Below, piece after piece: positions 29,644-48,539 of a stretch of 64,000 nt of DNA. How positions within the stretch are numbered: position 1 is the stretch's first letter; each line of letters starts with the position of its first letter. The notes under the pieces are model-generated. The model did not search any database and was not told the origin of the DNA. It was given only the letters and a program-made list of their open reading frames with translations. Position numbers and translations under genes: made by a program. Origin of the DNA: a virus; IMG/VR virus record IMGVR_UViG_3300018424_003353, positions 1 to 64,000 of that record. One strand, written 5' to 3'.

Positions 29644-30541
29644 TATTGATATTATCTATTTGTCATATGACGAACCTAATGCAGATGAAAACTATGCCGA
29701 TCTGCTTAAAAAAGCACCTTGGGCTAAACGTGTACACGGCGTAGAAGGATCAGATGCCGCACACAAAGCCTGTGCAGAACTTGCAGAAACAGAACGATTT
29801 ATTACTGTTGACGGTGACAATAAAATTTATGCTGACTTCTTAGAACAAGAAATAGATTTTAAACAACATCCTTATATGAAAAATGCTGTACTAAGTTGGT
29901 GCGGATATAATGTAATCAACGGACTTATGTACGGCAATGGCGGTTTAAAATGTTGGCCAAAAGATGTTGTACTAAACATGAAAACACATGAAGCAAGTGA
30001 ATCAAACGATATTGCTGCTCAAGTAGAATTTTGCTGGAACTTGGATTATATACAAATGAATAGTTGTTATTCAAAGGTATATAATAACGCTACACCTGCA
30101 CAAGCATGGAGAGCAGGCTTCCGTGAAGGTGTTAAAATGTGTTTGGACAGAGGTCGAAAGTTTAACAGTATAACATTCAAAGATGAAGTCTACTGGCAGA
30201 ATCTGCATAGACTAATGATATGGCAAATGGTAGGTGCAGATGTTGAACATGGTATGTGGGCAATATATGGAGCACGATTAGGTTGTGTAATGACTAATCT
30301 TGAAAATTGGGATTATGTACAAGTTAGAGATTTTAAGTACCTAAATAGTCTATGGGAAGAAATAACTCAAGATGTAGATGATACTAATATATTGTGGAAA
30401 GTAAGAAAGTTAGGATTTAGACTACAGCAAGAATTAGGATTGCCTGTTGACTTGCCGTTTACTAGAATTCAAAGCGAAATGTTCAAAGACAGTTATACAA
30501 ATACAGATCGCACAGGTCAAGGATTTATTGATGTTGAATAA
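29630..30541 (+). CDS. DGD-motif protein, putative transferase (303 aa)
   Basis: This is a single-domain relative of the second half of the upstream gene: DIIYLSYDEPNADENYADL, RVHGVEGSDAAHKACAEL and FITVDGDNKIYADF (D61-G-D63). Later both share W..GF.E..K and a final R...WQ type helix. The start is the ATG at 29630 inside the end of the upstream gene, with GAGAGG before it; an upstream TTG-initiated frame from 29603 is an extension without support. It sits directly before the first radical SAM gene, overlapping it by 11 bases. Sugar transfer is a guess from the motif. Confidence 0.58.
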   Translation: MKIRDIDIIYLSYDEPNADENYADLLKKAPWAKRVHGVEGSDAAHKACAELAETERFITVDGDNKIYADFLEQEIDFKQHPYMKNAVLSWCGYNVINGLMYGNGGLKCWPKDVVLNMKTHEASESNDIAAQVEFCWNLDYIQMNSCYSKVYNNATPAQAWRAGFREGVKMCLDRGRKFNSITFKDEVYWQNLHRLMIWQMVGADVEHGMWAIYGARLGCVMTNLENWDYVQVRDFKYLNSLWEEITQDVDDTNILWKVRKLGFRLQQELGLPVDLPFTRIQSEMFKDSYTNTDRTGQGFIDVE

Positions 30542-31916
30542 ACTAGTAAAAAAATTTGCTAGACAGCTAAAGATTGTAAAAGATCCTATTGACCGTATGA
30601 CTGAAGTAAAAGAAATTACGGATAAAGTTTCTCCTACATTTTGTTTGGCAAAATGGCATCACACTACAATATATTTACAAACAGGTGAAACGCATAGTTG
30701 TTATCATCCTGCACCGCATATTATTCCCTTACACGAACTTGAAAACAATCCTAGTGCCCTACACAATACAGTAGAAAAGAAATTACAGCGACGAGAAATG
30801 ATGGCAGGACTAAAACCTAAAGGGTGTCAGTACTGCTGGAATATAGAGTGCATGGGCAAAGACTATGTAAGTGACAGGCATGAAAGAAATGCTGGAATCT
30901 ATACAAAAGAACGATTAGCAGAAATTGTAGACAATGATTGGGACTTTAATATTAATCCAGAGTATATTGAAGTTTCATTTGGTAATGAGTGTAATTTAAA
31001 ATGTGGATACTGTCATCCTAAAGCAAGTAGTAGTTACTTTAAAGAAATAGAAGAATATGGCCCTTATGATATGGTTAAAAACCATTCATTTGATACCCGC
31101 CGTATGCGTATATACAAAAAGGAAGAAGAAAACCCTTATGTACAAGCATGGTGGGACTGGTGGCCCCAGGTAAGTAAAACGCTGAACATATTACGCATTA
31201 CAGGAGGTGAGCCACTTTTGCAACAGAGTACTTGGCGTTTGCTTGAGGACCTATCCGAGAATCCTCGTCCTAATCTTGAAATCAATATTAACAGTAATCT
31301 TGCTGTTAAAAATATACTTGTAAAACGTCTTGCAGAAAGGGTTAACAAGTTAATTGAAGAAAAGAAAATTAAACGGTTTAAATTGTTTACTAGTATGGAC
31401 ACTTGGGGAACACCTGCAGAATATATTAGAACTAACTTAGACTTGTCTGTTTGGGAAAAGAACTTTGATACATGGATGACACAAACAGATCAACCTATTA
31501 CATTTATGGTTACATTTAATGTGTTGTGTGTAACTACATTTAACAAACTGCTTGAAAAGTTTTTAGAGTGGAGACAGAAATATCAAACTGGTACAAGACG
31601 CATACGTTTTGATACACCTTATCTAAAAGAACCTTTGCAGTACGATATGAATATACTTCCTAAAAGTTTTATGAGTTATATGGAAAGTCATTTAGAATTT
31701 ATCAAAAGCAATCTAGATGACTATGACGTAAACAAATTTACAAAACTTGAATATGAAAAGTTTCGTCGTGTTGTAGATTACATGCGTACTACAAACTATG
31801 ACGAAGAAACCTTAGATATAGGACGAAAAGATTTTGTTGCTTGGTTTAAAGAACATGATAGACGTCGAGGAACAAATTTTGCTAAAACGTTTCCTGAATT
31901 ACATGGTATTTTTTGA
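30531..31916 (+). CDS. Radical SAM protein with N-terminal cysteine module (type 1, copy A)
   Basis: This 461-aa protein has the radical SAM 4Fe-4S motif C154-x3-C158-x2-C161 (NECNLKCGYCHP) and the SAM-binding TGGEP at about 224-228. Before it lies a module with C38, C57, C99 and C102 (FCLAKW, HSCYHP, CQYCW), spaced like a twitch or SPASM-type auxiliary cluster site. The start ATG at 30531 follows AAGGA; a longer frame from 30447 is the shadow of the upstream gene. It is paralogous to the gene at 41511. The reaction is unknown; related families modify peptides or small molecules by 5'-deoxyadenosyl radical chemistry. Confidence 0.85.
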   Translation: MLNKLVKKFARQLKIVKDPIDRMTEVKEITDKVSPTFCLAKWHHTTIYLQTGETHSCYHPAPHIIPLHELENNPSALHNTVEKKLQRREMMAGLKPKGCQYCWNIECMGKDYVSDRHERNAGIYTKERLAEIVDNDWDFNINPEYIEVSFGNECNLKCGYCHPKASSSYFKEIEEYGPYDMVKNHSFDTRRMRIYKKEEENPYVQAWWDWWPQVSKTLNILRITGGEPLLQQSTWRLLEDLSENPRPNLEININSNLAVKNILVKRLAERVNKLIEEKKIKRFKLFTSMDTWGTPAEYIRTNLDLSVWEKNFDTWMTQTDQPITFMVTFNVLCVTTFNKLLEKFLEWRQKYQTGTRRIRFDTPYLKEPLQYDMNILPKSFMSYMESHLEFIKSNLDDYDVNKFTKLEYEKFRRVVDYMRTTNYDEETLDIGRKDFVAWFKEHDRRRGTNFAKTFPELHGIF

Positions 31917-33128
31917 TGGATACGTTGGGTCGTTGATTAACTGATTACCTAAGTAATTTTGAGCAGATTCGATAAGTCTTAAAAATTCACTAATTGTGTA
32001 ATCATTATAATCAGCAAATTTATAATTGTAGTCTAATAAATCTTCATTTTTTAATGACCAATCAATTTGTTGTGAACGTGTCATTTTAGAAAGCATAGTA
32101 CACACACGAACTATTTCTTTTTCTAATTTATTCCAGCGTTTAACAATGTCTGGTTCAAAGTCAAACTCGTAGTCAAACCAATCAGTGTATAATTTATAAC
32201 CTAGTCTTTGAAGATTATAGTTTTGTCCTGTTTGTCCCCATATAAGCACAGGTGTTTTACATACGATAGGTTTAAAAGTTTTTTCGCTATAGAATAAACT
32301 AGTTTCTCCCCAATCACTTTGCATAGTTTCAGAAGTGAGATTAAACAATACTTGATTTTGTAAACCTACTCCTAAATCGTCAGCCCAGTTAGTTTCAAAG
32401 TCGGTTGTATCTGCAATAAGAGGAGTAACCCTTGTTAGAGTTTGTTCCATTTCTTTAGTAAAAAATTTGTTGGCTTTATATTCTTTTGGGTTTAATCGGT
32501 CATGACTAAGCAAACCATACTGTGCTACACCTGCTTCGTGCAGCCTCCAAGTACAATAACTACGCCAAAATCTATTACGTCTAGTTAAGTTAAGATAAAA
32601 CTTTCCTTGATAGTTTTGTTCTAAACTTTGTCTACGGCTAAATCTTCTTTTGCCTTCTGTCATCATAACTTTTTGAAAAGTATCCCAATGCATAATTTCA
32701 ATAATGTTGATAGGATAGTAATCACCGTGTGTGATATGGAAATTTTTAAAATTTGCTTTTTCTCTAAGATTTCCGCTTAAGAAAAATATAGCAGATGGAT
32801 CTATGTTATTTTTTATTGCACTATTATATAATGCTATAGCAACGCTTTGATGTTCTGGTGCCCAACCTTCGTGTGTACCATCTAATATAAAGATACATTT
32901 TCTTTGTCGTAACATATCAAGATAAAATGGTTTTATTGAGCTAAACACATCTGTATCTGTATCAAAAGGAGCATCATAGGAATAGTGTGCAAACAGGACA
33001 GTTATACTATTATAAGATCCTTTTTTAAGTAGAGGTATATGTTTTTTATAGTGATAAAAGCAGCCAATCTCACTTGGGCACTCTCTAAAATATTTGGTGT
33101 TGATAAGCCAGTCTGTTAGGTGTTGCAT
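31899..33128 (-). CDS. Glycosyltransferase-like protein (409 aa)
   Basis: The C-terminal half has a run typical of retaining or GT10-like transferases: FNLTSETMQ, then LFYSEKTFKPIVCKTPVLIW and LQRLGYKLYTDWFDYEFDFE. The SEKTFKPI element resembles the donor-binding SEK motif of fucosyltransferases. The N-terminal half contains IFILDGTHEGW and FYLNLTRRNRFWRSYCTWRL. The gene is read opposite to its neighbours and its last 18 bases overlap the end of the radical SAM gene upstream in the window. A late-promoter-like octamer sits 33 bases before its ATG. Sugar donor and acceptor are unknown. Confidence 0.6.
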   Translation of the reverse strand: MQHLTDWLINTKYFRECPSEIGCFYHYKKHIPLLKKGSYNSITVLFAHYSYDAPFDTDTDVFSSIKPFYLDMLRQRKCIFILDGTHEGWAPEHQSVAIALYNSAIKNNIDPSAIFFLSGNLREKANFKNFHITHGDYYPINIIEIMHWDTFQKVMMTEGKRRFSRRQSLEQNYQGKFYLNLTRRNRFWRSYCTWRLHEAGVAQYGLLSHDRLNPKEYKANKFFTKEMEQTLTRVTPLIADTTDFETNWADDLGVGLQNQVLFNLTSETMQSDWGETSLFYSEKTFKPIVCKTPVLIWGQTGQNYNLQRLGYKLYTDWFDYEFDFEPDIVKRWNKLEKEIVRVCTMLSKMTRSQQIDWSLKNEDLLDYNYKFADYNDYTISEFLRLIESAQNYLGNQLINDPTYPSKNTM

Positions 33129-33160
33129 TGAAAATCCATTAAATACTCAGTTAACTAAGA

Positions 33161-33168
33161 TATTTATG
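33161..33168 (-). promoter_or_regulatory. Candidate late promoter CATAAATA (minus strand)
   Basis: CATAAATA on the minus strand lies 33 bases before the ATG of the glycosyltransferase-like gene, in a 50-base divergent gap. The palindrome AGTTAACT at 33149-33156 lies between the octamer and that ATG. One mismatch to the T4 late consensus; tentative. Confidence 0.35.
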
Positions 33169-33178
33169 AAGGTACAAT

Positions 33179-34309
33179 ATGAGAATAGCATTTATTGGTT
33201 TAGGAAAACTAGGACTACCCTGTGCAGAAGAAATAGCCAAGAGCGGTCACATAGTTTCAGGATATGATATTGTTGAATGCAATACAAATAACGTCAAACA
33301 GTTGCCAACAATACAAGAAACTGTAGAAGGTCAAGAGATTGTATTTGTTGCTGTACCAACGCCACACGACCCTGCATATGACGGTAGAGCTCCTACAGCA
33401 CACCTAGAGCCAAAAGATTTCAGTTACGATATTGTTAAAGACGTTTTAACAGAATGTAACAAGCACATGAACAAAGACCAACTGCTTGTTTTAATCAGTA
33501 CAGTGTTACCTGGAACAACTCGTAGAGAATTTATTAATTTAGTACCTAATACACGATTTGTGTATAATCCGTATTTGATTGCTATGGGCACAGTTGCATG
33601 GGACATGGTAAATCCTGAAATGGTAATGATTGGAACAGATGATGGCAGTGAAACAGGTGACGCAAAACAGTTGGTAGACTTCTACAAAACTGTAATGCAA
33701 AATGATCCACGTTACGTTATTGGTACTTGGGACGAATGTGAAGCAATCAAAGTTTTTTATAATACATTTATTAGTACAAAGATTGGACTAGTAAACATGA
33801 TACAAGATGTTGCACAAAAGCAAGGCAACATCAATGTTGATGTAGTTACCAAAGCACTAGCAGAAAGTTCGCAACGTATCATGGGTCCTAGTTATATGAA
33901 GGCAGGCATGGGCGACGGTGGTGCTTGTCATCCTAGAGATAATATTGCACTACGTTACATGGCAAAAAATCTACATTTAGGATACGACATTTTTGATAGT
34001 ATTATGAACGCTAGAGAAATACAAGCACGTAACATGGCTATTGAAATACTCAAATATGGAAACAAAGTACAGTTTAGTAGTGACAGTTATAAACCAGGTG
34101 TAGAATATATAGACGGCAGTTATAGTTTACTAGTACAGCATTATGTTAAAGAATTAGGTGGCTGGATAGTAGATAAAGATCCTAGCGTATTTGTAAGAGT
34201 ACATGATACAGATGCAGTACCTGAAAATGTTACTGTTTTTGACCCTTGGCGTAATTATGAGGGCCAAAATCCTGTAGTACACTATGGAAATACTAGACAC
34301 AGCAAGTGA
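33179..34309 (+). CDS. UDP-glucose/GDP-mannose dehydrogenase family protein (376 aa)
   Basis: The N-terminal Rossmann domain begins MRIAFIGLGKLGLP with G7-x-G9-x2-G12. The family signature around the catalytic cysteine is present as MGDGGACHPRDNIAL with C250, and FVAVPTPHD and LISTVLPGTTRR match the nucleotide-binding and middle regions. At 376 aa it is slightly shorter than typical UDP-glucose 6-dehydrogenases. These enzymes oxidise the C6 of a nucleotide sugar to a uronic acid using NAD+. The exact sugar cannot be read from sequence. It would supply a precursor to the transferases encoded nearby. Confidence 0.85.
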   Translation: MRIAFIGLGKLGLPCAEEIAKSGHIVSGYDIVECNTNNVKQLPTIQETVEGQEIVFVAVPTPHDPAYDGRAPTAHLEPKDFSYDIVKDVLTECNKHMNKDQLLVLISTVLPGTTRREFINLVPNTRFVYNPYLIAMGTVAWDMVNPEMVMIGTDDGSETGDAKQLVDFYKTVMQNDPRYVIGTWDECEAIKVFYNTFISTKIGLVNMIQDVAQKQGNINVDVVTKALAESSQRIMGPSYMKAGMGDGGACHPRDNIALRYMAKNLHLGYDIFDSIMNAREIQARNMAIEILKYGNKVQFSSDSYKPGVEYIDGSYSLLVQHYVKELGGWIVDKDPSVFVRVHDTDAVPENVTVFDPWRNYEGQNPVVHYGNTRHSK

Positions 34310-34322
34310 AATATGTTATAAT
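34294..34322 (+). promoter_or_regulatory. Promoter-like TAGACA-17-TATAAT with extended -10
   Basis: TAGACA at 34294-34299 is followed after 17 bases by TATAAT at 34317-34322, with TG one base before the -10 (TGTTATAAT). The match is strong, but the predicted start of transcription falls at or just after the ATG of the next gene (34325 or 34328), so the transcript would be leaderless. It may instead serve genes further down. Confidence 0.45.
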
Positions 34323-34324: not shown

Positions 34325-35323
34325 ATGATGATTGATGAGAATACTTTTACTGAAATACCATTTGAAAAGATTGTTAAGTTTGGGCAACGTACCTTATTGG
34401 AACAGAACCTATTTACTGTCAGTTGGATTCTTGGTCGCTTTTGCAATTATAATTGTAGCTATTGCTGGCCCTACGCAAGATCAGACAAACCGGACCATTA
34501 TGATTTATCCGTTTACAAACAGACAATTGATAATATAAAATATCAAGCACAGTTAAATGGCTTTAAGAATTTTCATTTTAGTTTCAGTGGAGGCGAACCC
34601 ACTGCTTATAAATACTTTGGGGAACTTATAGAGTACTACTGTAGTGATACAGCACCCGAGTATCAAAGTATACATATGACCACAAATTTATCACCCGGAA
34701 GCAAATGGTGGAATAGGTGGTTAGATGCAACAAGTACTTTGCAACGTAGAAGTATAACAGCAAGTTTTCACGATGAATTTGCTAACGAGCAAGAGTTTGG
34801 AGACAAATGCTTGCAACTAATGAAAGGAGGAACCTTTGTTACGATTAATCAAGTTATGGTTCCTGAAAGGTTTGAAGAGCTTTACGAACGCCTACAACGA
34901 TTTGCCGCCAGAGGCATTAGCGTCACTCTCAAACCTCAGTCCAACAATACTGCCACCGACGTGGTACATGGATATACAAAAGAACAAATTGCAATCATGC
35001 AAGCCGGATTCCCACAAAAGTGGCAAGGCGAAAAAATCTCGCAAATTGCACTCTACGACGATAAAGGAATAGAGTACGATTTAGATCAAGCAGAACGTTT
35101 TAATGCGTTTGGCTTTAATAAGTTTGAAGGCTGGACTTGTAATGCAGGGTACCAGGGGATAGTTATTAGAGAAAATGAAGTAAAACGTTCCTATTCCTGT
35201 CATGAAGAACCTTTAGGAACAATAACCGATGGGTTCACTATACATGACGCTCCTAGAAAATGCATTACACGTTCTTGTGTAAGTTCAGCAGATTCTAAAC
35301 TTCCAAAAGTAAGAGAGATATAA
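34325..35323 (+). CDS. Radical SAM protein with C-terminal cysteine set (type 4, copy B)
   Basis: C40-x3-C44-x2-C47 (RFCNYNCSYCWP) is the radical SAM cluster motif, and FSGGEPT near residue 88 is the SAM-binding motif. The tail has C272 (GWTCNAG), C292 (SYSCHEE), C313 and C318 (KCITRSC), which could hold an auxiliary iron-sulfur cluster. The same order of tail motifs occurs in the genes at 39516 and 43765. Two ATG codons in tandem (34325, 34328) compete as start, and no good ribosome site is seen. It opens a run of eight plus-strand genes that continues to 42755. Confidence 0.82.
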   Translation: MMIDENTFTEIPFEKIVKFGQRTLLEQNLFTVSWILGRFCNYNCSYCWPYARSDKPDHYDLSVYKQTIDNIKYQAQLNGFKNFHFSFSGGEPTAYKYFGELIEYYCSDTAPEYQSIHMTTNLSPGSKWWNRWLDATSTLQRRSITASFHDEFANEQEFGDKCLQLMKGGTFVTINQVMVPERFEELYERLQRFAARGISVTLKPQSNNTATDVVHGYTKEQIAIMQAGFPQKWQGEKISQIALYDDKGIEYDLDQAERFNAFGFNKFEGWTCNAGYQGIVIRENEVKRSYSCHEEPLGTITDGFTIHDAPRKCITRSCVSSADSKLPKVREI

Positions 35324-35325: not shown

Positions 35326-35757
35326 ATGTTAAAACTAGTTAATGATGATTGGACATTAGGTTATGTAAAAGACGATCCAGTTCGTCCCCATTTGCCTATG
35401 CATTGGAGAATAGTAGACGGTAGAGAAGTTTACACGTTAGAAGATGACGAAGTAGGTGTTGCCAGGGCTGTTGTTTGTGTAGCATATACCAAAGGTGTTG
35501 CTATTACAGAAGAAGAACTAAACAACACAAACGATCCTGATACAGCAATGTTTTATACTGTATGGAGTTACGACAAAGGTGCTGGTAGAGAAATTATCTT
35601 CAGTACAGCAGATGTTATTAAACGTGACAAGCCATACATCAAACGTTTTTGTACACTAAGTCCATTAACTGAAATGGCAGAAAAGTTTCATTTGCGAAAT
35701 GGTGCAAAGTTATTACGTAAAGGGGACACTTGTCAAAACTTTGAGTACATAGTATGA
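35326..35757 (+). CDS. Unknown protein in radical SAM operon (143 aa)
   Basis: This 143-aa soluble protein contains HWRIVDGREVYTLEDDEVG, VVCVAYTKGVAI, GREIIFSTADVI and RFCTLSPLTEMAEKFHLRNG. I do not recognise the family with confidence. The beta-strand pattern with an ending TLSPLTEM...F helix is vaguely acyltransferase-like. It lies two bases after the radical SAM stop and overlaps the following methyltransferase-like gene by ATGA, so it probably serves the same pathway. Confidence 0.55.
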   Translation: MLKLVNDDWTLGYVKDDPVRPHLPMHWRIVDGREVYTLEDDEVGVARAVVCVAYTKGVAITEEELNNTNDPDTAMFYTVWSYDKGAGREIIFSTADVIKRDKPYIKRFCTLSPLTEMAEKFHLRNGAKLLRKGDTCQNFEYIV

Positions 35758-36359
35758 AAATTGAACTTGAAGATGTAATGTTCTGGATGGACGCTGTTCG
35801 CAACAGTGAAGACAGATATCGTACACTTGAAAGTTTTTGGAAAGGTCAAATAAGAAGTAAAATATGGTTAACTGAAGCAGTCCAAGCATTAAACTTATAC
35901 GGTGACAAACGCATTGTAATTCACGGTGGTTGGAATGGCGTGTTAGCAAGTATTATGTTTAATAGTAAAATTGGAATCAAACATATTACATCTTTAGATA
36001 TAGATCCTGTTTGTGAAGAAATAGCAAACACTGTAAACAAGCGTTATGAGATGGAAGGCAAGTTTACAGCAGTTACAGCAGACATGTGTAATTACAAATA
36101 TGATGCAGATATAGTAATTAATACCAGTTGCGAACATATTACACAAGAACAATACGAACAATGGTTAGATAATGTTCCTAAAGGAGCAACAGTAGTTTTA
36201 CAAAGTAATGATTATTTTAATCATGAAGAACATATTCGTTGTGCAATAGACTTAGATGATTTTACTCAAATGTCTAAAATAAAAGCTCTTTGGCGAGGCA
36301 CATTAGATACGCCAAAGTATAATCGGTTTATGATAATAGGAAAGAAAGACGTTGTTTAA
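35754..36359 (+). CDS. SAM-dependent methyltransferase-like protein (201 aa)
   Basis: A class I methyltransferase pattern is visible: IVIHGGWNGVLASIM in the place of motif I, ITSLDIDPVCEEIANTVN with the acidic end of strand 2, FTAVTADMCNY, and INTSCEHITQEQYEQW near motif IV. Length (201 aa) fits a core domain without a large cap. The motif I glycines are GGWNG rather than the usual GxGxG, so catalysis is not certain. It is coupled to its neighbours by overlaps and sits between two radical SAM genes. Confidence 0.65.
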   Translation: MKIELEDVMFWMDAVRNSEDRYRTLESFWKGQIRSKIWLTEAVQALNLYGDKRIVIHGGWNGVLASIMFNSKIGIKHITSLDIDPVCEEIANTVNKRYEMEGKFTAVTADMCNYKYDADIVINTSCEHITQEQYEQWLDNVPKGATVVLQSNDYFNHEEHIRCAIDLDDFTQMSKIKALWRGTLDTPKYNRFMIIGKKDVV

Positions 36360-37419
36360 GTTTGAAAGCCTAAAAAGTATACATTTAGAAATTACCAATC
36401 GGTGTCAAGCAAGTTGCCCAATGTGTAGTAGAAATGTGCATGGCGGCTTAGAAAATCCTCTTATCAAAAATCAAGACTGGACAACACAAGACTTTAAAGA
36501 TGTTTTAAACGAAGAAGTTTTACAACAAGTAGACGGATTTTATTTTTGTGGTAACTTTGGTGATCCTATTATTAATAATGACCTAATAGAAATGTGTCGT
36601 TACAGCAAACAGACTAATCCTAATTTATATATTCGTATACATACCAACGGTGGTGCTAGGTCTCCTGAATGGTGGGAAGAATTACGTTTTGCATTACCTC
36701 CTGCACATAATGTTATATTTGCTATTGATGGTTTAGAAGATACACATAGTTTATATCGTATTGGTACAAAATATGAAACAGTAATAAGAAATGCCAAAGC
36801 ATTTATAAACGCAGGCGGCACTGCTGAATGGGCTTTTATAAAATTTAAACACAACGAACATCAATTAGAAGAAGCAGAACGTAGAGCAAAAGAATTAGGC
36901 TTTGCTAGATTTACATACAAAGACAGTGCAAGATTTGTTGCTACTGAAAAGTTTGAAGTACTTGATAGGTATGGTGATGTATCTTATTATTTAGAACCAC
37001 CAACTGGAAGTAAAATTAACCTAATTACACAAGACGTTATTGACAATTACCAAGATATTGTTGATGCTAGTGAGATTGATTGTTATGTTGTACAAACAAA
37101 AGAAGTTTATATAGACGCATATAAAAAAGTTATGCCTTGTTGCTTTTTGTCAAGTATACCTTACAATTATACAAGACAAGACGATAATGTAAAGTATATT
37201 AGACAAAAAATGCACTCTCAATATCAAGACCTTATTAATGACTTAGGTAACACTAATGCATTAGAACGATCTGTTAAAGACATAATCAACTCAACACCTT
37301 GGCAGACTGTATGGAACAAATATTGGGGCGAGAAAAAACTAATTACTTGTGCAAGGACATGCGGAGTTAATAAACTCAGCAAACCTAAAGATCAGTTTAT
37401 AGAAAAGGTAGAACTATGA
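36352..37419 (+). CDS. Radical SAM protein with SPASM-like tail (type 5, copy C)
   Basis: This starts at TTG 36352, overlapping the end of the methyltransferase-like gene, as no ATG fits. The cluster motif C18-x3-C22-x2-C25 (NRCQASCPMCSR) is very close to the N-terminus. The usual GGEP is replaced by CGNFGDPII. C-terminal cysteines C244, C263, C264, C333 and C337 (KVMPCCFLSS, TCARTCGV) resemble a SPASM-type auxiliary cluster region. SPASM enzymes often modify ribosomally made peptides. No precursor peptide gene was recognised nearby. ATGA coupling to the next gene. Confidence 0.8.
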   Translation: MFKFESLKSIHLEITNRCQASCPMCSRNVHGGLENPLIKNQDWTTQDFKDVLNEEVLQQVDGFYFCGNFGDPIINNDLIEMCRYSKQTNPNLYIRIHTNGGARSPEWWEELRFALPPAHNVIFAIDGLEDTHSLYRIGTKYETVIRNAKAFINAGGTAEWAFIKFKHNEHQLEEAERRAKELGFARFTYKDSARFVATEKFEVLDRYGDVSYYLEPPTGSKINLITQDVIDNYQDIVDASEIDCYVVQTKEVYIDAYKKVMPCCFLSSIPYNYTRQDDNVKYIRQKMHSQYQDLINDLGNTNALERSVKDIINSTPWQTVWNKYWGEKKLITCARTCGVNKLSKPKDQFIEKVEL

Positions 37420-38117
37420 TACATTTTGATCCTAAATGGAAAAACATTGGTATAAGCGTAAGTGGCGGTGCTGACAGTGCATTACTAGCATACTTGGTTT
37501 GTTCTCAAGTTGAAGATGCTACTGTACATATACTAAGCCATGTGCGTATGTGGAAAACAAGACCATGGCAGCGTTATGATAGTATTAGAGTTTTTACTTG
37601 GCTTGTAAATAGATTTCCTAACATAAGATTTTTACGTCACGAAAACTTTATTCCGCCTGATTTAGAATACGGTAGCAAAGGTGCTAACATTGAAGATGAA
37701 TATGGACAACTTCGTAGTGGAGATCAAATTGCTGTAAGAGCTCATGCTGAATGGATTGCAGCAACAGAAAACTTAGATGTATGGTATGCTGCAAAAAGCA
37801 AAAACCCTAGCGATCCTACAATTACAAAAGGTATGCCCGACCGCAATATTATAGTTGAAGATCCTAATGAACTTGTTAAAGAACACAATGGTGTAACTGT
37901 GTGTCATCCGTTTTTATATACAGAAAAAGATTGGATTGTAAAACAATATATTGATAACGATATTATGGATTTGTTTAACATAACACGCAGTTGTGAAGGC
38001 GATTTTGAAAACTTAAATTATACAAACTATATAGTTGGTGAACCTGTACCAGAGTGCGGAGAATGTTTTTGGTGCCAAGAACGCAACTGGGCCAAGGAAA
38101 AGAATAATGTCAAATAA
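37416..38117 (+). CDS. QueC-like PP-loop ATPase (233 aa)
   Basis: The PP-loop S16-G-G-A-D-S21 (ISVSGGADSALL) near the N-terminus marks an ATP pyrophosphatase of the QueC/asparagine-synthetase type. The C-terminus carries four cysteines C193, C214, C217 and C220 (ECGECFWCQ), equivalent to the zinc site of 7-cyano-7-deazaguanine synthase. Length (233 aa) also fits QueC. The segment SKNPSDPTITKGMPDRN in the middle is unlike bacterial QueC as I know it, so the substrate may differ. It is embedded in the radical SAM run, 24.6 kb from queE and folE at the right end. Confidence 0.7.
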   Translation: MIHFDPKWKNIGISVSGGADSALLAYLVCSQVEDATVHILSHVRMWKTRPWQRYDSIRVFTWLVNRFPNIRFLRHENFIPPDLEYGSKGANIEDEYGQLRSGDQIAVRAHAEWIAATENLDVWYAAKSKNPSDPTITKGMPDRNIIVEDPNELVKEHNGVTVCHPFLYTEKDWIVKQYIDNDIMDLFNITRSCEGDFENLNYTNYIVGEPVPECGECFWCQERNWAKEKNNVK

Positions 38118-39519: not shown

Positions 39520-40487
39520 TTGTAAAACTACAAAATAATCAAGCACAAGATACACTTCGCATAGAATACATGCTGGGCAATCTCTGCAATCATAAATGCT
39601 ACTACTGTTTTCCGGGCAGTAACGAAGGCGATCAACCTTGGCCTGATATTGACATAGTCAAACAGAATCTAGGACACCTATTAGAACATTATCGCAACAA
39701 TGGCAAACCCAAAAGCGAAATATTCTTTGTTGGCGGTGAACCTACACTGTGGAAAGGCTTGCCTGAACTGTGTACATACTTGAAAGAAAAGTTTGATACA
39801 CGAATCGAAATAAGTTCAAACGGTAGTAAAAGCATAAGTTGGTGGAAACGTGAAGCACATAACTTTGATATAGTTGGCATAAGTGTACACAATGAATTTG
39901 CAAAATTAGATCATATTAGTGAAGTGTGTGATATTTTATATGAGAACAATGTTATGGTAAACGCAGATGTTCTTATGGATCCTTTAGAGTTCGACAAGTG
40001 CAAAGAAAACATTGAATATCTAAAAGATAATTCTAAATATGAATGGACTATAATTGCTAAACTTGTACATTTTTCTGGTGAACATAGATATACAGATCTA
40101 CAACTTGACTATTTTCAAGATCCAATAAAGCGTTATCCTAACAAAGAATGGTACGAAAAGAATGTTAGAAAACCGGAGACACTTATTGCAGTATACAAGC
40201 AAGGATTTAGACCGTTCATAGTAAAAGATGATAATTGGGTAATAAGAAATAAACTAAATCATTTTAAAGATTGGACCTGTAACATTGGTGTTGATTTTAT
40301 AAAAATTTTTAGTAGCGGACAAATCAGTGGTAACTGTCAGCAAATATTATACGGTGACAAAATTCACCATAACTTATACAGTAAAGATTTTATACAAAAA
40401 TACAATCCTAAGATAGTGCCTGTAAAATGTACACAGGATATTTGTGGTTGTAGTGAAGAAGCATCATGTACAAAAAGAATTTTTTAG
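39516..40487 (+). CDS. Radical SAM protein with C-terminal cysteine set (type 4, copy E)
   Basis: I place the start at the ATG of an ATGA overlap at 39516 (323 aa). The cluster motif is C24-x3-C28-x2-C31 (NLCNHKCYYCFPG), followed by FVGGEPT. The tail has DWTCNIG, SGNCQQ and then KCTQDICGC and SCTK, matching in order the cysteine-rich tails of the genes at 34325 and 43765. The region VGISVHNEF corresponds to the S-x-H strand in its relatives. It forms part of the tightly overlapping 34-43 kb run. Confidence 0.82.
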   Translation: MIVKLQNNQAQDTLRIEYMLGNLCNHKCYYCFPGSNEGDQPWPDIDIVKQNLGHLLEHYRNNGKPKSEIFFVGGEPTLWKGLPELCTYLKEKFDTRIEISSNGSKSISWWKREAHNFDIVGISVHNEFAKLDHISEVCDILYENNVMVNADVLMDPLEFDKCKENIEYLKDNSKYEWTIIAKLVHFSGEHRYTDLQLDYFQDPIKRYPNKEWYEKNVRKPETLIAVYKQGFRPFIVKDDNWVIRNKLNHFKDWTCNIGVDFIKIFSSGQISGNCQQILYGDKIHHNLYSKDFIQKYNPKIVPVKCTQDICGCSEEASCTKRIF

Positions 40488-41518
40488 ACACACTAGAACC
40501 TAATTACTTTCACATAGAATGGGAAAGCACTCTAAAGTGTAATCTTGACTGTAGTTATTGTGGCGATGGGCATAACAATAAAATACCTCACCCATCTCTT
40601 GAAGACAGTTTGCACACTCTTGATTTTATTGTAGACTATGTTAGTGTACAATTTAAAACTCGTCCTAAAGCATTACAACAAGCAAGTTTAAATATTTTAG
40701 GTGGTGAAAGTTTATTTCATCCTAATATATTAGAAATACTTGATTACGTAGATCAAAAAAAGAAACAAGTTGACTGGCAATTTTATATTGGAACTATTAC
40801 AAATGCAGTAGTTGGAAAACGTTTGTGGAAAAGTATAGTTGAAATGTTAGACTATTTTACAGTTAGTTTTCATGCAGAAGCATTACCAAAACAACGCAAA
40901 CAAGTAAAAGACAATTTATTATATCTTAAAAAACAAAATAAGAACTTTCATGTTAGCATAATGATGCATCCTAAACAATGGGACGTTTGTATTAACATGA
41001 TAGAGTTTTGTAAAAATCATGACATGCGATACGAAACTCGTCAAATCGATCACGATTGGTTTGATTGGCGATTTAATTATACACCAGAACAAGCAGAATT
41101 TATAACAGGAAAACGTCCTGCTAGTTTATTGCAAACTGCAACAGCAATAGTAACACAAGGTGTAAATCTAAGTGCAGAAGGTAGAGCCTGCTGCGGTGGA
41201 CAAACGCTATGTACAAATTCAGGTTGTACTAAATTTGTAGATAATAGATTCAAAGGTTGGAATTGCAGTGTAGATAAATTCTTTTTGTACATTAGACAAA
41301 CTACTGGAGAGATATTTACTAATAAAGACTGTAGAATGAACTTTGATGGAAAAGTTGGTCCTATAGGAAATCTTAAAAATACACAAGCATTATTAGACAG
41401 AGTAGAACAAGGCACTGACACTATTGTTTGTAAAAAGTCTAGATGTTGGTGCGGCATTTGTGCTCCTAAAGCACTAGACAAAAAAGACTATGAGAGTATA
41501 ATGACAAGATATGTTTAA
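40466..41518 (+). CDS. Radical SAM protein with zinc-finger-like cysteine tail (type 3, copy F)
   Basis: C25-x3-C29-x2-C32 (LKCNLDCSYCGDG) is the radical SAM motif and NILGGESLFHP the SAM-binding loop, with GGES in place of GGEP. The C-terminal third is unusual: ACCGGQTLC, GWNCSVDKFFLYI, KDCRMNF, then IVCKKSRCWCGICAPKA. At least eight cysteines there could carry one or two extra Fe-S clusters. The same tail occurs in the gene at 42717 on the other strand. The start overlaps the upstream gene by 22 bases. Confidence 0.82.
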   Translation: MYKKNFLDTLEPNYFHIEWESTLKCNLDCSYCGDGHNNKIPHPSLEDSLHTLDFIVDYVSVQFKTRPKALQQASLNILGGESLFHPNILEILDYVDQKKKQVDWQFYIGTITNAVVGKRLWKSIVEMLDYFTVSFHAEALPKQRKQVKDNLLYLKKQNKNFHVSIMMHPKQWDVCINMIEFCKNHDMRYETRQIDHDWFDWRFNYTPEQAEFITGKRPASLLQTATAIVTQGVNLSAEGRACCGGQTLCTNSGCTKFVDNRFKGWNCSVDKFFLYIRQTTGEIFTNKDCRMNFDGKVGPIGNLKNTQALLDRVEQGTDTIVCKKSRCWCGICAPKALDKKDYESIMTRYV

Positions 41519-42755
41519 TTGGTATGTAAAAAATAAACTAGGCGAAAGTCTATGTTTAGCAAAGTGGACTAACAGCACAATGCATTTGGGCATAGGAAAG
41601 AATCACAGTTGTCATCATCCTAATCCACATGTTGTTCCTGTTGAAGAAGTGCAAGCAGATCCTAGTGCATTGCACAATAGCTCATACAAACGTAGTGTCA
41701 GAAATCAAATGCTCAACGGAGAACGTCCTAGTGAGTGTGATTACTGTTGGCGTATAGAAGAAACAGAAAAATATAGTGATCGTGTTCTTATGAGCAAGAA
41801 GCGTGACAGTTGGCCACATCGCAAAGATATCATTGCCACTGACAGATACGATCCTACTATGCTAGAAGTTAGTTTCTCAAACGTGTGCAACTTTAAATGT
41901 GCATACTGTGGACCACAGTTTAGCAGTTTGTGGACTAGCGAAATATCTAACCTTGGTGCGTATCCTACTTCCGACAGTTACAACCAAATACACGAAAAAC
42001 AAATACTAGACAGAGAACACAATCCTTACATTGAAGCGTTCTGGGAATATTTGCCTACTATGTATGACAAATTACATACACTTCGTATTACTGGTGGTGA
42101 ACCTATGCTTAGTAGACACACTGAAAAACTGTTAGAATATATTACGCAACATCCTAACAAAAAACTTACAGTTGTAATCAACAGCAACCTAGGTGCTCCA
42201 AAACACATCATTGCTAACTTTATTGAACTGCTTGAAAAAGTGCAGAAAAATGTAAAGCGTATAGAAATAGCAACCAGTGGAGAAAGTTATGGCGGACAAG
42301 CAGAATATGTTCGTGACGGATTAAACTATCGAGAATGGTTATTGAACTGTTATTATGTACTAGCAGCATTGCCTAAACTAAGACTTAACTTGATGTGTGC
42401 ATACAACGTTTTAAGTATAACAAGTTTTGCTAGATTTCTAGATGATGTAGTTGCCCTTAAAAAAGAATATAAACGTGTTACGCTCAGTGTTAGTTATGTA
42501 AGGCATCCTAGTTTCCTACATGTATCACTAGCACCTAAAGTATGGAGACCTATACTAGAAGCAAGTTGCGAAAAAATTAAAAAGCATTTTAATAGCGAAA
42601 CAGTCAAACGTTTTAAGTTTGTACTAGCAGAGTTTGATAAGCAACCTACAGAAACACAGTTGCAAGATTTCAAACTGTTTATTTCAGAGTATGATAAACG
42701 TAGAGAGAAAAAGTTTTTAGATGTTTTTGGCGAGTATGGCTGTATAGTCGGATAG
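41511..42755 (+). CDS. Radical SAM protein with N-terminal cysteine module (type 1, copy G)
   Basis: This is the paralogue of the gene at 30531. N-terminal cysteines C15, C34, C76 and C79 (LCLAKW, HSCHHP, CDYCW) have exactly the same spacing (18, 41, 2) as copy A. The radical SAM site is C126-x3-C130-x2-C133 (NVCNFKCAYCGP) and ITGGEPML follows. Length is 414 aa against 461, mainly through a shorter N-terminus. Its last 39 bases overlap the end of the convergent gene at 42717. Function unknown. Confidence 0.85.
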   Translation: MFNWYVKNKLGESLCLAKWTNSTMHLGIGKNHSCHHPNPHVVPVEEVQADPSALHNSSYKRSVRNQMLNGERPSECDYCWRIEETEKYSDRVLMSKKRDSWPHRKDIIATDRYDPTMLEVSFSNVCNFKCAYCGPQFSSLWTSEISNLGAYPTSDSYNQIHEKQILDREHNPYIEAFWEYLPTMYDKLHTLRITGGEPMLSRHTEKLLEYITQHPNKKLTVVINSNLGAPKHIIANFIELLEKVQKNVKRIEIATSGESYGGQAEYVRDGLNYREWLLNCYYVLAALPKLRLNLMCAYNVLSITSFARFLDDVVALKKEYKRVTLSVSYVRHPSFLHVSLAPKVWRPILEASCEKIKKHFNSETVKRFKFVLAEFDKQPTETQLQDFKLFISEYDKRREKKFLDVFGEYGCIVG

Positions 42756-43778
42756 TTCTTTAGCCTTAGGCACACACATTCCACAACCACATCTTTCATT
42801 AGGGCAAACAATAGTTCGTTCTTTGTTTGCGTTTGCATAAGCAAGTATACTATCAGTGTCTTTAAGGGTGCCTACAGGGCCTCTTAGACCGTCGTGTAGT
42901 GCTTGACAGGTCTGATGGTGATACACATTGCCCGTGTGTTGATCAATGTGTAAGAAGTACTTATTGACGCTGCAAAACCATCCTTTAAAATGTGTATCGA
43001 CTAGCTCAACTGCTTGCCACTCACCGTTTACTTTGCCCTGTAAACAGCGACCGCCACAGCATTTACGTCCTAATTCTGTTCCTGCTTTAATTCCTTCGCT
43101 AGGTTTTGAAGAATTGGTATAATTGTAAAACCATTCCTGTTGTTCGTCTGTATAATCGTGTGTTGTTCTACGCAAATTACCATCTGTATCAACAAACCAA
43201 CCTTTGCGTTCAACATTGCCGTCACCAATAGGACGAGGATTGTGTTTGATACCTAATATTTTTAACTTTTCACACATTTTAACACCATCAGTCCAGTTGT
43301 CTGTGTGCAGCATTACATTAACTTGTAACCAAATACCAGCTCTGTGCAATAGTTTAATGTTATCGATTGTTTGTTTTCTTAGTCTAGCGTGACCTTCAGT
43401 ATGGTAACTTACAGTTACACCGTCAAATAACTTAGCAATACGATCTGTATTACTTGGATGCCAAGCACCATTAGTAGTTAAACTAAGTCTAAAACGTGTT
43501 TCTGTATTTTTAATATGTTCTGCTAGTTGCCAAAACGCAGGATTAATTGTAGGCTCACCGCCTGTAAAGTTTATGTTAACTAAATCTGAATATATGCTGG
43601 TATACTCTTTTATAAATTCAAAAGTTTTTAACAATTCTTCGTAACTATGCGGAGGACTTACATTGTCGTGGCGACTTGCTTCGCAGTATGAACAGTCAAA
43701 GTTACATCTACGTCCAGTATCCCAAGTAACCATTAAGCGTTCTGGTCCTGTTAAGTTTATAGCACTAGTTTGTATCAT
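42717..43778 (-). CDS. Radical SAM protein with zinc-finger-like cysteine tail (type 3, copy H)
   Basis: I chose the ATG at 43778, six bases after AAAGG; a TTG two codons earlier is possible. The cluster motif is C25-x3-C29-x2-C32 (RRCNFDCSYCEAS), then NFTGGEPTINP. The tail RKCCGGRCLQG, GWFCSVNKYFLHI, QTCQAL and IVCPNERCGCGMCVPKA matches copy F segment by segment. The gene is the last of a four-gene minus-strand run from 46734 and overlaps the end of copy G. Confidence 0.82.
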   Translation of the reverse strand: MIQTSAINLTGPERLMVTWDTGRRCNFDCSYCEASRHDNVSPPHSYEELLKTFEFIKEYTSIYSDLVNINFTGGEPTINPAFWQLAEHIKNTETRFRLSLTTNGAWHPSNTDRIAKLFDGVTVSYHTEGHARLRKQTIDNIKLLHRAGIWLQVNVMLHTDNWTDGVKMCEKLKILGIKHNPRPIGDGNVERKGWFVDTDGNLRRTTHDYTDEQQEWFYNYTNSSKPSEGIKAGTELGRKCCGGRCLQGKVNGEWQAVELVDTHFKGWFCSVNKYFLHIDQHTGNVYHHQTCQALHDGLRGPVGTLKDTDSILAYANANKERTIVCPNERCGCGMCVPKAKELSDYTAILAKNI

Positions 43779-44673
43779 TTGCAACCTTTGTTAACGGAAT
43801 GTCAGCAGCACAAGTACACCATTTGCGTGTACAAATAACTGCTTCTTCAGGCGGTTCAAATGATCCATCGTATATATTTCCCAAACTTCCGCCTACTCTG
43901 CAAGTAGCTCGATGCACATCACCATCCCAATTAATCATTAAACTCTCTAATCCTGCATTACAAGTCCAACCTTCAAACTGATTACGTTGTTCTTTAATAA
44001 TATCATTAGCGTGTGCAAGTTCTTCATCGTCAATAACGCAGTTTTCTTTGGCAGTAGACTTTTGATCTAGTATCCAACGCAGATCTTTTTCTTTATATTT
44101 CATGTCATCAAACCAATCGTGCTTTTCTGTCCAACGTATGCGTCTAACAACATAAGGAATATTGTGGCCGTCAAACATCATTGCACACTGTTTTACTCTG
44201 TCCATGTGTTCGTGATGTGCCATTAGATTAACTTGATAAGGAATATTCTTTTCAATTTCGTTTAGTTGTGACCAATGAAGTATATTGTCAGCACATCGAC
44301 GCCAATTTTTATCATCTTCTACATGCAAACTAAACACATAATGACTTACAGGAAGTCTATTATATAGTTCTGGCGGCAGTGTTGCATTGGTTGTTATGTT
44401 AACCCAGTCTAATCGTTGGCTAGCGTGTTCAACAATTTCTTCTATATCAGGATGCACACAAGGCTCACCACCTGTTAAACTTAGTCTAATAGGTTTACCT
44501 ATTTCATAGAGTGCGTCTATTACATCTAGCATAACTTTAACATTGGTATGTGGACTAAAGTTGTCGTGTATTTCAGCAGGACAATAGGTACAATCTAAAT
44601 TACAGCGTTTACCAATGTTCCATTCAACATGAATACTGTCTTGATGATCCCATCTGCTAGTTATTGAATACAT
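43765..44673 (-). CDS. Radical SAM protein with C-terminal cysteine set (type 4, copy I)
   Basis: This 302-aa protein has C24-x3-C28-x2-C31 (KRCNLDCTYCPAE) followed by LTGGEPCVHP. The C-terminal part has GWTCNAGLESLMI, HRATCRVGG, SLGNIYDG and ICTRKWCTCAAD, comparable with copies B and E. A conserved S-x-H (VFSLHVED) strand aligns with SFHDE and SVHNE in those copies. It overlaps both neighbours by 13-14 bases, so the four minus-strand genes are probably one transcript. Confidence 0.82.
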   Translation of the reverse strand: MYSITSRWDHQDSIHVEWNIGKRCNLDCTYCPAEIHDNFSPHTNVKVMLDVIDALYEIGKPIRLSLTGGEPCVHPDIEEIVEHASQRLDWVNITTNATLPPELYNRLPVSHYVFSLHVEDDKNWRRCADNILHWSQLNEIEKNIPYQVNLMAHHEHMDRVKQCAMMFDGHNIPYVVRRIRWTEKHDWFDDMKYKEKDLRWILDQKSTAKENCVIDDEELAHANDIIKEQRNQFEGWTCNAGLESLMINWDGDVHRATCRVGGSLGNIYDGSFEPPEEAVICTRKWCTCAADIPLTKVANDTN

Positions 44674-45473
44674 TCTACGCCCTTAACTTTATTAAATGAT
44701 TTTAAGTATTCTATATCTATACCATTTACAGCTAAGTCTGCAACAGGAATCATACCTAAATTTATATTCTTAAATGTAAAAGATTGTAATTTAAGCCAAA
44801 GTTTTATATATGCTTTTCTTATAGCATACAACCAATAAGGAATAGTAGGACCAAACTTAACCATAAAATCTGCACTATAATATTCTTGTGGTCTAACACC
44901 TTGTGCTATGCTGTCTTTGTCTTTAAAAACATCTAATACAGTTTTACCTACTTGACAGTAGTTAATATAAACAGTACCATGTGTCCATCTAAATGTAAAG
45001 TGCTTCATATCTTCTTCTGTTAGATTTATTATAGGTCTGTCTTTGAATGTAACAACTACAGTAGGATGATTTTTTGTTCTAAGTTCTGCTTCTAGTTTGT
45101 GTATTAGTACATTAAATCGCTCAACTGCTTCTTGTGCTTCACTAGGTGCAGTATTAAACCACTCTGTTCCTTTATCTACTTCGCCGCGTAGGTCTTCAAA
45201 GAACTTGTGTAAGTAGTTTAAATCTCCTTGCATATCAGTGCTTGCACTACTAATATATCGATCAATACAAACTCCATGTTGATTTATTTTAGTAATACAC
45301 TCATTAAGTTCTGGAATAAGATTTTGTGTACCCCAATTAGTAAATCTATCTGTTTCGTAAAGCTCGTAATTTTTCAACAGTTCCTCAAACCATTTTTTAG
45401 CAATGCTAGTATTTCTTACAGTGAAAGGTATACTAACATTTTCCTTGTCATTTGTCAATACCAAATTAAACAT
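44661..45473 (-). CDS. Unknown protein inside radical SAM operon (270 aa)
   Basis: The start is set at the ATG at 45473, overlapping the stop of the radical SAM gene before it; a longer frame from 45515 is a shadow. There is no cysteine cluster, no signal peptide and no recognised motif. Visible features are SIPFTVRNTSIAKKWFEELL at the N-terminus, a helical middle with EAVERFNVLIHKLEAEL, and HFTFRWTHGTVYINYCQVG. It overlaps radical SAM genes at both ends. A role as substrate carrier, scaffold or partner of the flanking enzymes is possible but unproven. Confidence 0.6.
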   Translation of the reverse strand: MFNLVLTNDKENVSIPFTVRNTSIAKKWFEELLKNYELYETDRFTNWGTQNLIPELNECITKINQHGVCIDRYISSASTDMQGDLNYLHKFFEDLRGEVDKGTEWFNTAPSEAQEAVERFNVLIHKLEAELRTKNHPTVVVTFKDRPIINLTEEDMKHFTFRWTHGTVYINYCQVGKTVLDVFKDKDSIAQGVRPQEYYSADFMVKFGPTIPYWLYAIRKAYIKLWLKLQSFTFKNINLGMIPVADLAVNGIDIEYLKSFNKVKGVECIQ

Positions 45474-46734
45474 ATGGAGCAAACTCCGGATTAGTAGCAA
45501 GAAAATCCTGTCCACGAGTTGCGTCTAAACGTTTATTAAATTCAATACAGTCAGCCCAGTGTGTGTCGTGCATATCTTTTGCTTCTAAGAAGTTTATGTT
45601 GTCTTGTATTTGTTGTAGAGTAACTTGTTTTACAATATCGTGTTCTTTTACAAGTTTGTATTCAAGCACCTTATGCTTCATTTGCTCAAGGCGATTAACT
45701 ATACCTGTCTTTAATAACTTTGGTAGTACTTGTGCAGAAAGTGCCATTGGATAGTTTACACGATGCGAGTAAAATATAATGCCCATTTCTTCTAAAAAGT
45801 ATTCTATTACTTTGTCAATCTGCATAATGTTATTTGCTTGTACAGTAAACGCACCAACTACACGACTTACATTAGGAAATGATTTAAAAACTTTTACGTT
45901 TTCTTCTATTTCGCTAAACTTGCCATTGCCTCTAATATATTCGTAGACATCGTGTATGCCGTCTATGCTTACATTTACAGCAATGCTTTTAAACTTAGGC
46001 CAATAGTCGTGTATAGTACGTCCGCCTTTAATGCCTAGTGTAGTTCCGTTTGTAGCATACTTTAATTCTATTTGATGACCATACTCTGCAAGTTTGTCTA
46101 GTATCTTGTAATGATATGGATCCATTAGAGGTTCGCCACCGGCAAACTCTACTCTACGGAAGTACGGTAATAGTTTTTCAAAACTTGTCCACCAATTGTC
46201 ACTATTGTCAAACAGACCAATATATTGACCTGGAACATCAACTAATTTTTGAACAGTAGGTACAAGATAGTTTTCTTCCTTTTCATAAAATTCTGTAACT
46301 TGATCCCAATCTTTCCAACTTGTGCTGTCCAAAGGATTGCACATACGACACTTCAAATTACATAAATTATTGAGTTTGATTTCCATTGTAGGAAGCTCAA
46401 ATGGCATGCTATAATCTTCGTTTAAAGCGTCTAGTGCATCAGGGTATAAGTTGACCCTTGCTTCTGGTATAACACCCGCTGTATGACGCTGTCGTAAGCT
46501 CTGTACACCCTGATCTTCAAGGTCAAAGCACGGTTTGCATACATCTGGACGCTCGTTATTGAGAACTTGTTTTCGAACAAGTTTCATTGCATCCGAATTC
46601 CATGCTTCTTCTAAACTTTGATTTTGGATCCATGCAATTGGCTGACTGCGACAGCACACTTTAATTGCACCATCTTCTCTAGTTGCCAATCCAGTAAATG
46701 GATGCATACAAAATGTACAACTATTTGATTTCAT
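45466..46734 (-). CDS. Radical SAM protein with N-terminal SPASM/twitch-like module (type 2, copy J)
   Basis: This 422-aa paralogue of the gene at 38107 has N-terminal cysteines C9, C27, C28, C66 and C69 (FCMHPFTGL, KVCCRSQ, DVCKPCF) with AWNSDAMKLVRKQVL between them. The radical SAM site is C125-x3-C129-x2-C132 (NLCNLKCRMCNP) and FAGGEPLM follows. The first interval (18 residues) and the CC pair match copy D exactly. It is the first gene of the minus-strand run; no clear ribosome site precedes its ATG. Confidence 0.84.
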   Translation of the reverse strand: MKSNSCTFCMHPFTGLATREDGAIKVCCRSQPIAWIQNQSLEEAWNSDAMKLVRKQVLNNERPDVCKPCFDLEDQGVQSLRQRHTAGVIPEARVNLYPDALDALNEDYSMPFELPTMEIKLNNLCNLKCRMCNPLDSTSWKDWDQVTEFYEKEENYLVPTVQKLVDVPGQYIGLFDNSDNWWTSFEKLLPYFRRVEFAGGEPLMDPYHYKILDKLAEYGHQIELKYATNGTTLGIKGGRTIHDYWPKFKSIAVNVSIDGIHDVYEYIRGNGKFSEIEENVKVFKSFPNVSRVVGAFTVQANNIMQIDKVIEYFLEEMGIIFYSHRVNYPMALSAQVLPKLLKTGIVNRLEQMKHKVLEYKLVKEHDIVKQVTLQQIQDNINFLEAKDMHDTHWADCIEFNKRLDATRGQDFLATNPEFAPYV

Positions 46735-48538: not shown

Positions 48539-48539
48539 T

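Follow-up and report, generated by a model that had tools for sequence, protein, structure and literature searches.

The window analysed here, positions 1 to 64,000 of a 94,281-bp IMG/VR virus record (IMGVR_UViG_3300018424_003353; G000:C1:1-64000), carries at 30531-46734 an island of ten genes for predicted radical S-adenosylmethionine (SAM) proteins, members of an oxygen-sensitive class of enzymes. A motif scan finds CxxxCxxC in ten open reading frames (ORFs) of this interval, against 0.1 expected from protein shuffles of all 55 ORFs in the window (maximum 2 in 500), and all ten products match the radical SAM family PF04055 in Pfam, with E-values from 6e-6 to 5e-15. As single proteins, eight of them exceed the curated PF04055 cut-off, with R1 and R6 just below; R6 passes in a genome search, where it is scored together with its in-frame neighbours, and R1 stays just under. 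Profile search and motif count thus agree with a first-pass annotation of the same DNA, which had read ten CxxxCxxC radical SAM genes here.

The ten proteins fall into three architectures. Four have an N-terminal twitch region, namely R1 (30531-31916, plus strand; PF04055 E 6e-6), R4 (38107-39519, plus), R7 (41511-42755, plus) and R10 (45466-46734, minus), and these pass the 170-bit cut-off of the twitch model N_Twi_rSAM (NF033640, NCBIfam; a family name without assigned function) at 316, 390, 290 and 335 bits, respectively. Five carry a C-terminal cysteine set, namely R2 (34325-35323, plus; E 2e-12), R5 (39516-40487, plus; E 3e-12), R6 (40466-41518, plus; E 4e-6), R8 (42717-43784, minus; E 5e-15) and R9 (43765-44673, minus; E 4e-13), and R3 (36352-37419, plus; E 4e-9) stands apart, with CGNFGDP at the usual GGEP position. 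Unlike the first four, these six lie outside NF033640, with at most 44 bits for those listed, and the best score of any island protein against the viperin models NF038283 and TIGR04278 is 53 bits, with a cut-off of 180. In alignments of 19-20 homologues each, the motif cysteines C40/44/47 and the auxiliary C272/292/313/318 of R2 are invariant, as are five auxiliary cysteines in R4, five in R9 and five to six in R10; in R4 all eight cluster cysteines are invariant. In the six other radical SAM proteins extra cysteines are present in the single sequence, consistent with the earlier count of at least nine proteins with such sets. With 31% identity between the closest pair, the ten are distinct members of the radical SAM family with additional iron-sulfur-type cysteine sets. 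An eleventh radical SAM relative, a QueE-like protein with CxxxCxxF (CNFRCMNF) in place of CxxxCxxC and weak matches to several QueE models, lies outside the island at 62730-63623 on the minus strand.

The ten genes are not equally conserved across related loci. With R10 as bait, 291 IMG/VR stretches were found, and in the 80 that were fetched and counted R9 is present in 80, R4 in 77, MT in 72, the QueC-like gene in 67, Asp1 in 64, R3 in 62, R5 in 59 and R2 in 52, followed by u44 (18), R8 (17), R6 (10), R7 (9) and R1 (at most 18); the lower of these counts are minima, because the loci are of unequal length. R2 was chosen as a second bait against the bias of starting from R10, and its relatives are encoded in at least 580 IMG/VR stretches. 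In the 24 R2 loci of at least 14 kb, which overlap the R10 set by few contigs (seven of the 80, matched by name), R4, MT and R3 each occur 23 times and DGDa 21 times, together with R9-like genes of any form (21), R10-like (17), QueC-like (10), UGD (9) and Asp1 (7) genes; gene absences in these counts are soft, since bait windows are short and contigs fragmentary. DGDa, R2, MT, R3 and R4 are near-constant, each in 21-24 of the 24 loci, and therefore form a conserved five-gene core. DGDa (28297-29643, plus) is glycosyltransferase-like with two diverged DGD domains, and MT (35754-36359, plus) is a SAM-methyltransferase-like protein with weak PrmA/Methyltransf_25 matches only and no match of its profile in the PDB.

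Of the ten radical SAM genes, R2, R3 and R4 thus belong to the core, whereas the other seven are accessory or vary among loci: R6, R7 and R8 are variable, and R9 and R10 are frequent accessory genes. At least two alternative accessory blocks flank the core. Where the block is R9/R10/QueC-like/Asp1, R4 is about 68-88% identical to that of the window; where a different hydroxylase block takes its place, R4 is only 42-47% identical. Accessory enzymes differ among loci in the manner of exchangeable blocks (R9/R10/QueC-like/Asp1; R1; R5-R8; UGD). The multi-step tailoring pathway proposed by the first-pass annotation is therefore retained in part: the genes do form a tightly packed set in an accessory region adjoining tail-fibre genes, but the ten do not make up one pathway of equal members. 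A general boost to host metabolism at low oxygen, as proposed for Campylobacter phages CP220 and CPt10 (PMC2853527), is a highly improbable role for this island, as none of the ten proteins passes the cut-off of a housekeeping radical SAM model and the core consists of particular genes that keep company with glycosyltransferase-like ones.

The same core genes are found in bacteria. In a GTDB contig scan with the N-twitch family, Bdellovibrionota are the commonest group among the strongest of the matches listed, with 37 matches in one genome and 17-25 in others. Of the 291 Bdellovibrionota genomes sampled, 17 have an R2 orthologue, versus 0 of 399 Pseudomonadota, the former search serving as positive control for the latter. 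Around the Bdellovibrionota R2 lie R3, which adjoins it, R4, DGD, MT, family-2 glycosyltransferase (GT2) and pyridoxal-phosphate (PLP)-like genes, with DGD in 8 loci, MT in 8 and GT2-type enzymes in 10, two of them confirmed by Pfam; because the contigs reach 1.6 Mb (also 0.94 Mb), these clusters are chromosomal. Phage and Bdellovibrionota R2 are 55-57% identical in alignment (46-53% by blastp to the window protein) and share long invariant blocks also outside the cluster motif, arguing that R2 probably catalyses the same reaction in both. Bdellovibrionota R4 is 39-48% identical to the window protein, and in a FastTree phylogeny the R4 proteins of phages and Bdellovibrionota group together (local support 99%); the tree is used solely for this grouping, as its labels gave loci L003, L007, L008 and L011 a bacterial origin in error. 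The bacterial arrays resemble the phage core in the clustering of R2, R4, R3, DGD and MT, but they are chromosomal and larger, and contain GT2, PLP-like, HTTM-like and B12-radical-SAM-like genes. A literature search lacking most subscription journals found no description of them.

Three side observations concern these genomes. At L170-L178 (G020, G022, G023), Bdellovibrionota N-twitch arrays are mixed with QueC-like, Asp-hydroxylase, B12-type radical SAM, PLP-like, HTTM-like and short-chain dehydrogenase/reductase (SDR) genes. In two Bdellovibrionota genomes (L094:10832-12466 and L096:10712-12733), a secreted, pilin-like protein whose Cys-rich C-terminus is conserved adjoins the R2-R4-R3 trio; it is a possible substrate, though none was seen in the other clusters. 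A further Bdellovibrionota-assigned contig (L218, G189:C21) shows the phage-like order u25-GTa-GTb-x-DGDb followed by radical SAM genes, and is either an integrated phage island or a mis-binned phage.

The Bdellovibrionota arrays, with up to 37 N-twitch genes per genome, resemble secondary-metabolite loci, and their QueC-like, PLP-like, SDR-like and B12-radical-SAM-like neighbours would suit the synthesis of a free small molecule or cofactor of natural-product type, which the cell or phage would release or use and which would not be attached to a surface. However, no carrier protein, non-ribosomal peptide or polyketide synthase, or transporter was identified, and the most regular companions of the radical SAM genes are glycosyltransferases, so that we regard a free product as rather unlikely.

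An AlphaFold2 (AF2) model of DGDb (29630-30541, plus), built from 16 sequences with a pLDDT of 83.7, matches GT-A glycosyltransferases and nucleotidyltransferases in Foldseek (RmlT, SunS, TarS/TarP and RmlA-like proteins), with probabilities of 0.96-1.00, E about 1e-3 and some 12% identity, and also matches viral glycosyltransferases. DGDa is a diverged relative of DGDb in the DGD family. The DGD proteins accordingly fall in the GT-A fold class by model comparison, with sugar transfer as their putative activity. Upstream of DGDa lie u25, GTa (26164-27021, plus; glycosyltransferase-like by reading, with no Pfam family) and GTb (27008-27787, plus; a putative glycosyltransferase with PF11051 Mannosyl_trans3 at E 0.009, under cut-off), which form the upstream flank of the island, are syntenic in contigs of MED685 and G189, and keep the order u25-GTa-GTb-DGDb in L181 and L218. 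Within the island, a protein of the UDP-glucose/GDP-mannose dehydrogenase family (UGD; 33179-34309, plus) exceeds the cut-offs of PF00984 and PF03721 and matches phrog_9148 (UDP-glucose dehydrogenase) at E 3.5e-92. Next to it, a possible GT-B/GT10-like glycosyltransferase (31899-33128, minus) is assigned by motif reading, has no Pfam, PHROG or NCBIfam match, and has weak homologues in other phage islands (L079, L081, L038).

Two further families would extend the chemistry. Asp1 (46789-47454, plus) is assigned through its homologues to the Asp/Asn beta-hydroxylase family of the Fe(II)/2-oxoglutarate type: the window protein itself has no PF05118 match, but 15 of 20 family members do (best 3.5e-5), the family profile matches the beta-hydroxylase 7v4f in the PDB at E 2e-14, and HxD...H...R is conserved. 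The QueC-like PP-loop ATPase (37416-38117, plus; phrog_1550, E 1e-7) scores 16.2 bits against PF06508, under the cut-off of 22, which a homologue in G004 passes; its PP-loop SGGADS and C-terminal C193/214/217/220 are invariant in 21 homologues. This SGGxDS and four-cysteine site indicates likeness to QueC rather than function. The one PDB match of the QueC-like family profile was dismissed as chance.

Another possible role is DNA hypermodification with 7-deazaguanine derivatives, in which the QueC-like protein and the radical SAM enzymes would carry out additional tailoring. Besides the QueE-like gene, FolE-like, QueD-like and DpdA/Tgt-like genes are recognised by motif reading at 63620-64000 (minus), L009:4054-4503 and L009:5326-6780, which would fit modification of the DNA with 7-deazaguanine; the related phages G007 and G008 have the DpdA-like gene at 78% identity, and no other Pfam QueC is present in the 357-kb relative. 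Yet the queE-like and dpdA-like (69329-70780) genes lie outside the island, unlinked to the core, the core itself occurs on Bdellovibrionota chromosomes, and the QueC-like gene is accessory by the R2-bait counts. Because of the missing linkage and the bacterial occurrence, a purely 7-deazaguanine role is very unlikely.

The genes of the island are packed with almost no intergenic space, the gaps ranging from -95 to +50 nt, in agreement with the overlapping starts and stops noted at first reading. With 31899-33128 and 42717-46734 encoded on the minus strand, the island occupies both strands and is not one operon. The T4 late-promoter motif TATAAATA is under-represented in the window (positions 1-64000), with 2 found versus 8 expected by shuffling, and we therefore infer no timing of expression from late promoters. 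A 143-aa GNAT-like protein (35326-35757, plus; weak PF05292 match, E 1e-4, under cut-off) is a rare neighbour, and u44 (44661-45515, minus) encodes a variable 284-aa protein without notable family match. The methyltransferase-like and QueC-like proteins, the protein of about 270 aa without assigned function and the sugar genes that were first read as interleaved with the radical SAM genes are thus all in place. Downstream, at 47451-51159, lie kinase-like (47451, 50449), hydroxylase-like (47975, 49124, 49618) and SDR-like (48540) genes, labelled by motif reading only and without Pfam matches, which recur next to the island in IMG/VR loci. Unless otherwise supported, the labels kin1, kin2, Asp2-4 and GT10-, FolE-, QueD-, DpdA-, PLP-, HTTM- and B12-radical-SAM-like are likewise motif readings. 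A single 4189-aa ORF at 411-12980 lies at the start of the tail-fibre region.

The family-B DNA polymerase of the phage is 50% identical to that of Sinorhizobium jumbo phage Phosso and 46% to that of Agrobacterium phage Atu_ph07, followed by Rak2-like jumbo phages, and the polymerases of the IMG/VR relatives G007 (357,559 bp) and G008 are 85% identical. On these grounds the window most likely represents one piece of a larger genome, that of an uncultured marine jumbo phage in the T4-related Rak2/Atu_ph07/Phosso supergroup, and not of a SAR11 myophage. Relatives on longer contigs hold 13-15 radical SAM genes, the 357-kb relative 13. R10 is 79-100% identical across the 80 IMG/VR loci, and the idea that this marks a special substrate was rejected because the DNA polymerase of two related phages is likewise 85% identical. 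Also rejected as cellular hosts were a contig of the metagenome-assembled genome (MAG) MED685 (L179-L183, G024:C3), labelled 'Gammaproteobacteria', and a Pelagibacter MAG contig (L184, G026:C33): both carry MoxR/VWA or tail genes of this phage, and are thus phage contigs mis-binned into MAGs. A 'Neisseriaceae' MAG contig (L107) is probably also a mis-binned related phage. As for supporting functions, no ferredoxin (PF00111) as electron donor was found in 11 phage records and no nucleosidase (PF01048) for clearance of 5'-deoxyadenosine in nine viral records. In the MED685 phage, a nucleoside-phosphorylase-family gene (PF01048, 52.6 bits; L093:13200-13757) lies within the radical SAM array, and its product is a plausible scavenger of 5'-deoxyadenosine or S-adenosylhomocysteine.

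From the enzyme families, the core and accessory structure and the sharing with Bdellovibrionota, we infer a substrate and a product. The core reaction probably acts on something available to both phage and bacterium, i.e., a sugar nucleotide, glycan, glycolipid or small molecule, and probably not on a phage structural protein, since R2 is conserved in bacteria without tail fibres beside it. The core would make or rebuild one sugar-containing scaffold, for which nucleotide-sugar enzymes and glycosyltransferases would supply and transfer sugar units; R2, R3 and R4, working through 5'-deoxyadenosyl radicals, would oxidise, rearrange or couple C-H positions that are unreactive, MT would methylate, the QueC-like ATPase would activate a carboxylate, Asp1-type oxygenases would hydroxylate, and the variable accessory radical enzymes would diversify the product. 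The end point would most likely be a surface glycoconjugate of the infected cell, where it would block rival phages, or of the virion, as the cassette adjoins tail fibres and the region shows the variability of a host-recognition island. Among candidate products a glycoconjugate ranks first, since in phages and Bdellovibrionota alike no other non-radical genes accompany the core as regularly as those for glycosyltransferase-like proteins. The AF2 model of R4, of moderate confidence (pLDDT 72.6), includes the sugar-acting radical SAM enzymes DesII and BlsE among its fold matches. A published precedent, the SAR11 myophages with glycosyltransferases and radical SAM cassettes in their host-recognition cluster (PMC7029224), lends further support. 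We therefore tentatively propose that the island is a modular, exchangeable cassette that builds and decorates an unusual glycoconjugate, the product probably altering the surface of the infected cell or virion.

Several observations weigh against this proposal. Asp-hydroxylases usually act on proteins; the top fold match of the R4 model is the peptide maturase SkfB, and the R2 profile matches enzymes that modify peptides or proteins, namely TigE (8vpo) and the sulfatase-maturating enzyme. The DGD matches, at 10-14% identity and with low TM-scores, are fold-level only, so that they define no more than a fold class; the genes expected for a surface polysaccharide (flippase, polymerase, ligase) were not identified; and late promoters of the T4 type show no enrichment. 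Since the nearest solved relatives of R2 and R4 include enzymes that modify peptides or proteins, and Asp-hydroxylases act on proteins, peptide or protein tailoring keeps a substantial share: the radical SAM, Asp-hydroxylase, methyltransferase and glycosyltransferase enzymes may instead modify a peptide resembling ribosomally synthesised and post-translationally modified peptides (RiPPs) that is encoded elsewhere, or a virion protein, e.g., the adjoining tail fibres. Auxiliary clusters of the SPASM/twitch type are typical of radical SAM enzymes that act on peptides, the DGD fold matches include the peptide glycosyltransferase SunS, and in phages of several unrelated lineages groups of radical SAM genes lie close to those for tail fibres or baseplates, as also published (PMC12390700). 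However, no RiPP precursor was found: in 35 loci, 15 bacterial and 20 from phages, no conserved short ORF is shared around the core except phage genes outside the island, and the island leaves almost no room for one between its genes. R2 and R4 are, moreover, conserved in Bdellovibrionota, whose chromosomal copies had no homologue of a tail fibre next to them in the loci seen, and this disfavours a phage-specific protein substrate. Overall, tailoring of a peptide or protein is a serious though less favoured alternative.

Phages rich in radical SAM genes are already on record. Campylobacter phages CP220 and CPt10 have 11 and 12 such genes, five of which make up an exchangeable cluster (PMC2853527), phage IBB_35 has six (PMC3322345), a T4-like genome from the TARA ocean data has 12 (PMC5332604), and the Aeromonas giant phage 332-Vera has eight amid a structural and tail-fibre cluster (PMC12390700); radical SAM groups are also seen in Vibrio phage K566 and Phosso. 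Given these examples and the SAR11 cassettes, the earlier statement that no described phage pathway is known with so many radical SAM enzymes is not supported as worded, and the accounts, in the portions seen, assign no product to the sets. The gene set itself is not a named phage cluster: a near-identity search of GenBank phages gave no match, and close relatives of R2, R4, DGD, MT and the QueC-like protein are absent from 50,697 GenBank phages, which yield weak matches only. CP220 and CPt10 (Firehammervirus) also belong to the T4 superfamily and are described as carrying, near baseplate genes, a cluster with nucleotide-sugar-transferase-like and amidinotransferase genes (PMC2853527), but their proteins are ~21-27% identical to those of the window, with many matches partial, and are not orthologous; no R4-type, DGD or MT match was found in them. 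Pelagibacter phage Mosig, an example of the pelagimyophages, resembles the window in its host-recognition cluster, which lies between tail fibres and VrlC and includes radical SAM genes, an MT gene (product 29% identical), an Asp-hydroxylase and an aminotransferase (PMC7029224), but has a 141-kb genome, three MoaA-like genes and another gene set, with no R2, R4 or DGD match. 332-Vera and the TARA genome share the abundance of radical SAM genes, whereas no R2, R4 or DGD match to phages of this type was obtained in the GenBank phage collection. What appears new is therefore the five-gene core and its Bdellovibrionota counterpart, radical SAM-rich phages as such being already known.

Taken together, it is conceivable, if still rather doubtful, that DGDa-R2-MT-R3-R4 is the core of an undescribed pathway, shared by abundant marine jumbo phages and predatory Bdellovibrionota, which yields a radical-tailored glycoconjugate of a new chemical class, with a surface role in the attack on prey cells or their defence and diversified by exchange of accessory radical enzymes. 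Radical SAM clusters of phages have been noted since 2010, and the puzzle of what they make is here narrowed to a core of five genes, which bacterial chromosomes carry too. As the core is present in bacteria with some cultivable relatives, its function can be probed with standard gene knockouts and mass spectrometry. If a new glycoconjugate is indeed the product, the island would represent new chemistry, spread over no fewer than 580 IMG/VR stretches, and a trait common to two unrelated kinds of bacterial predator.

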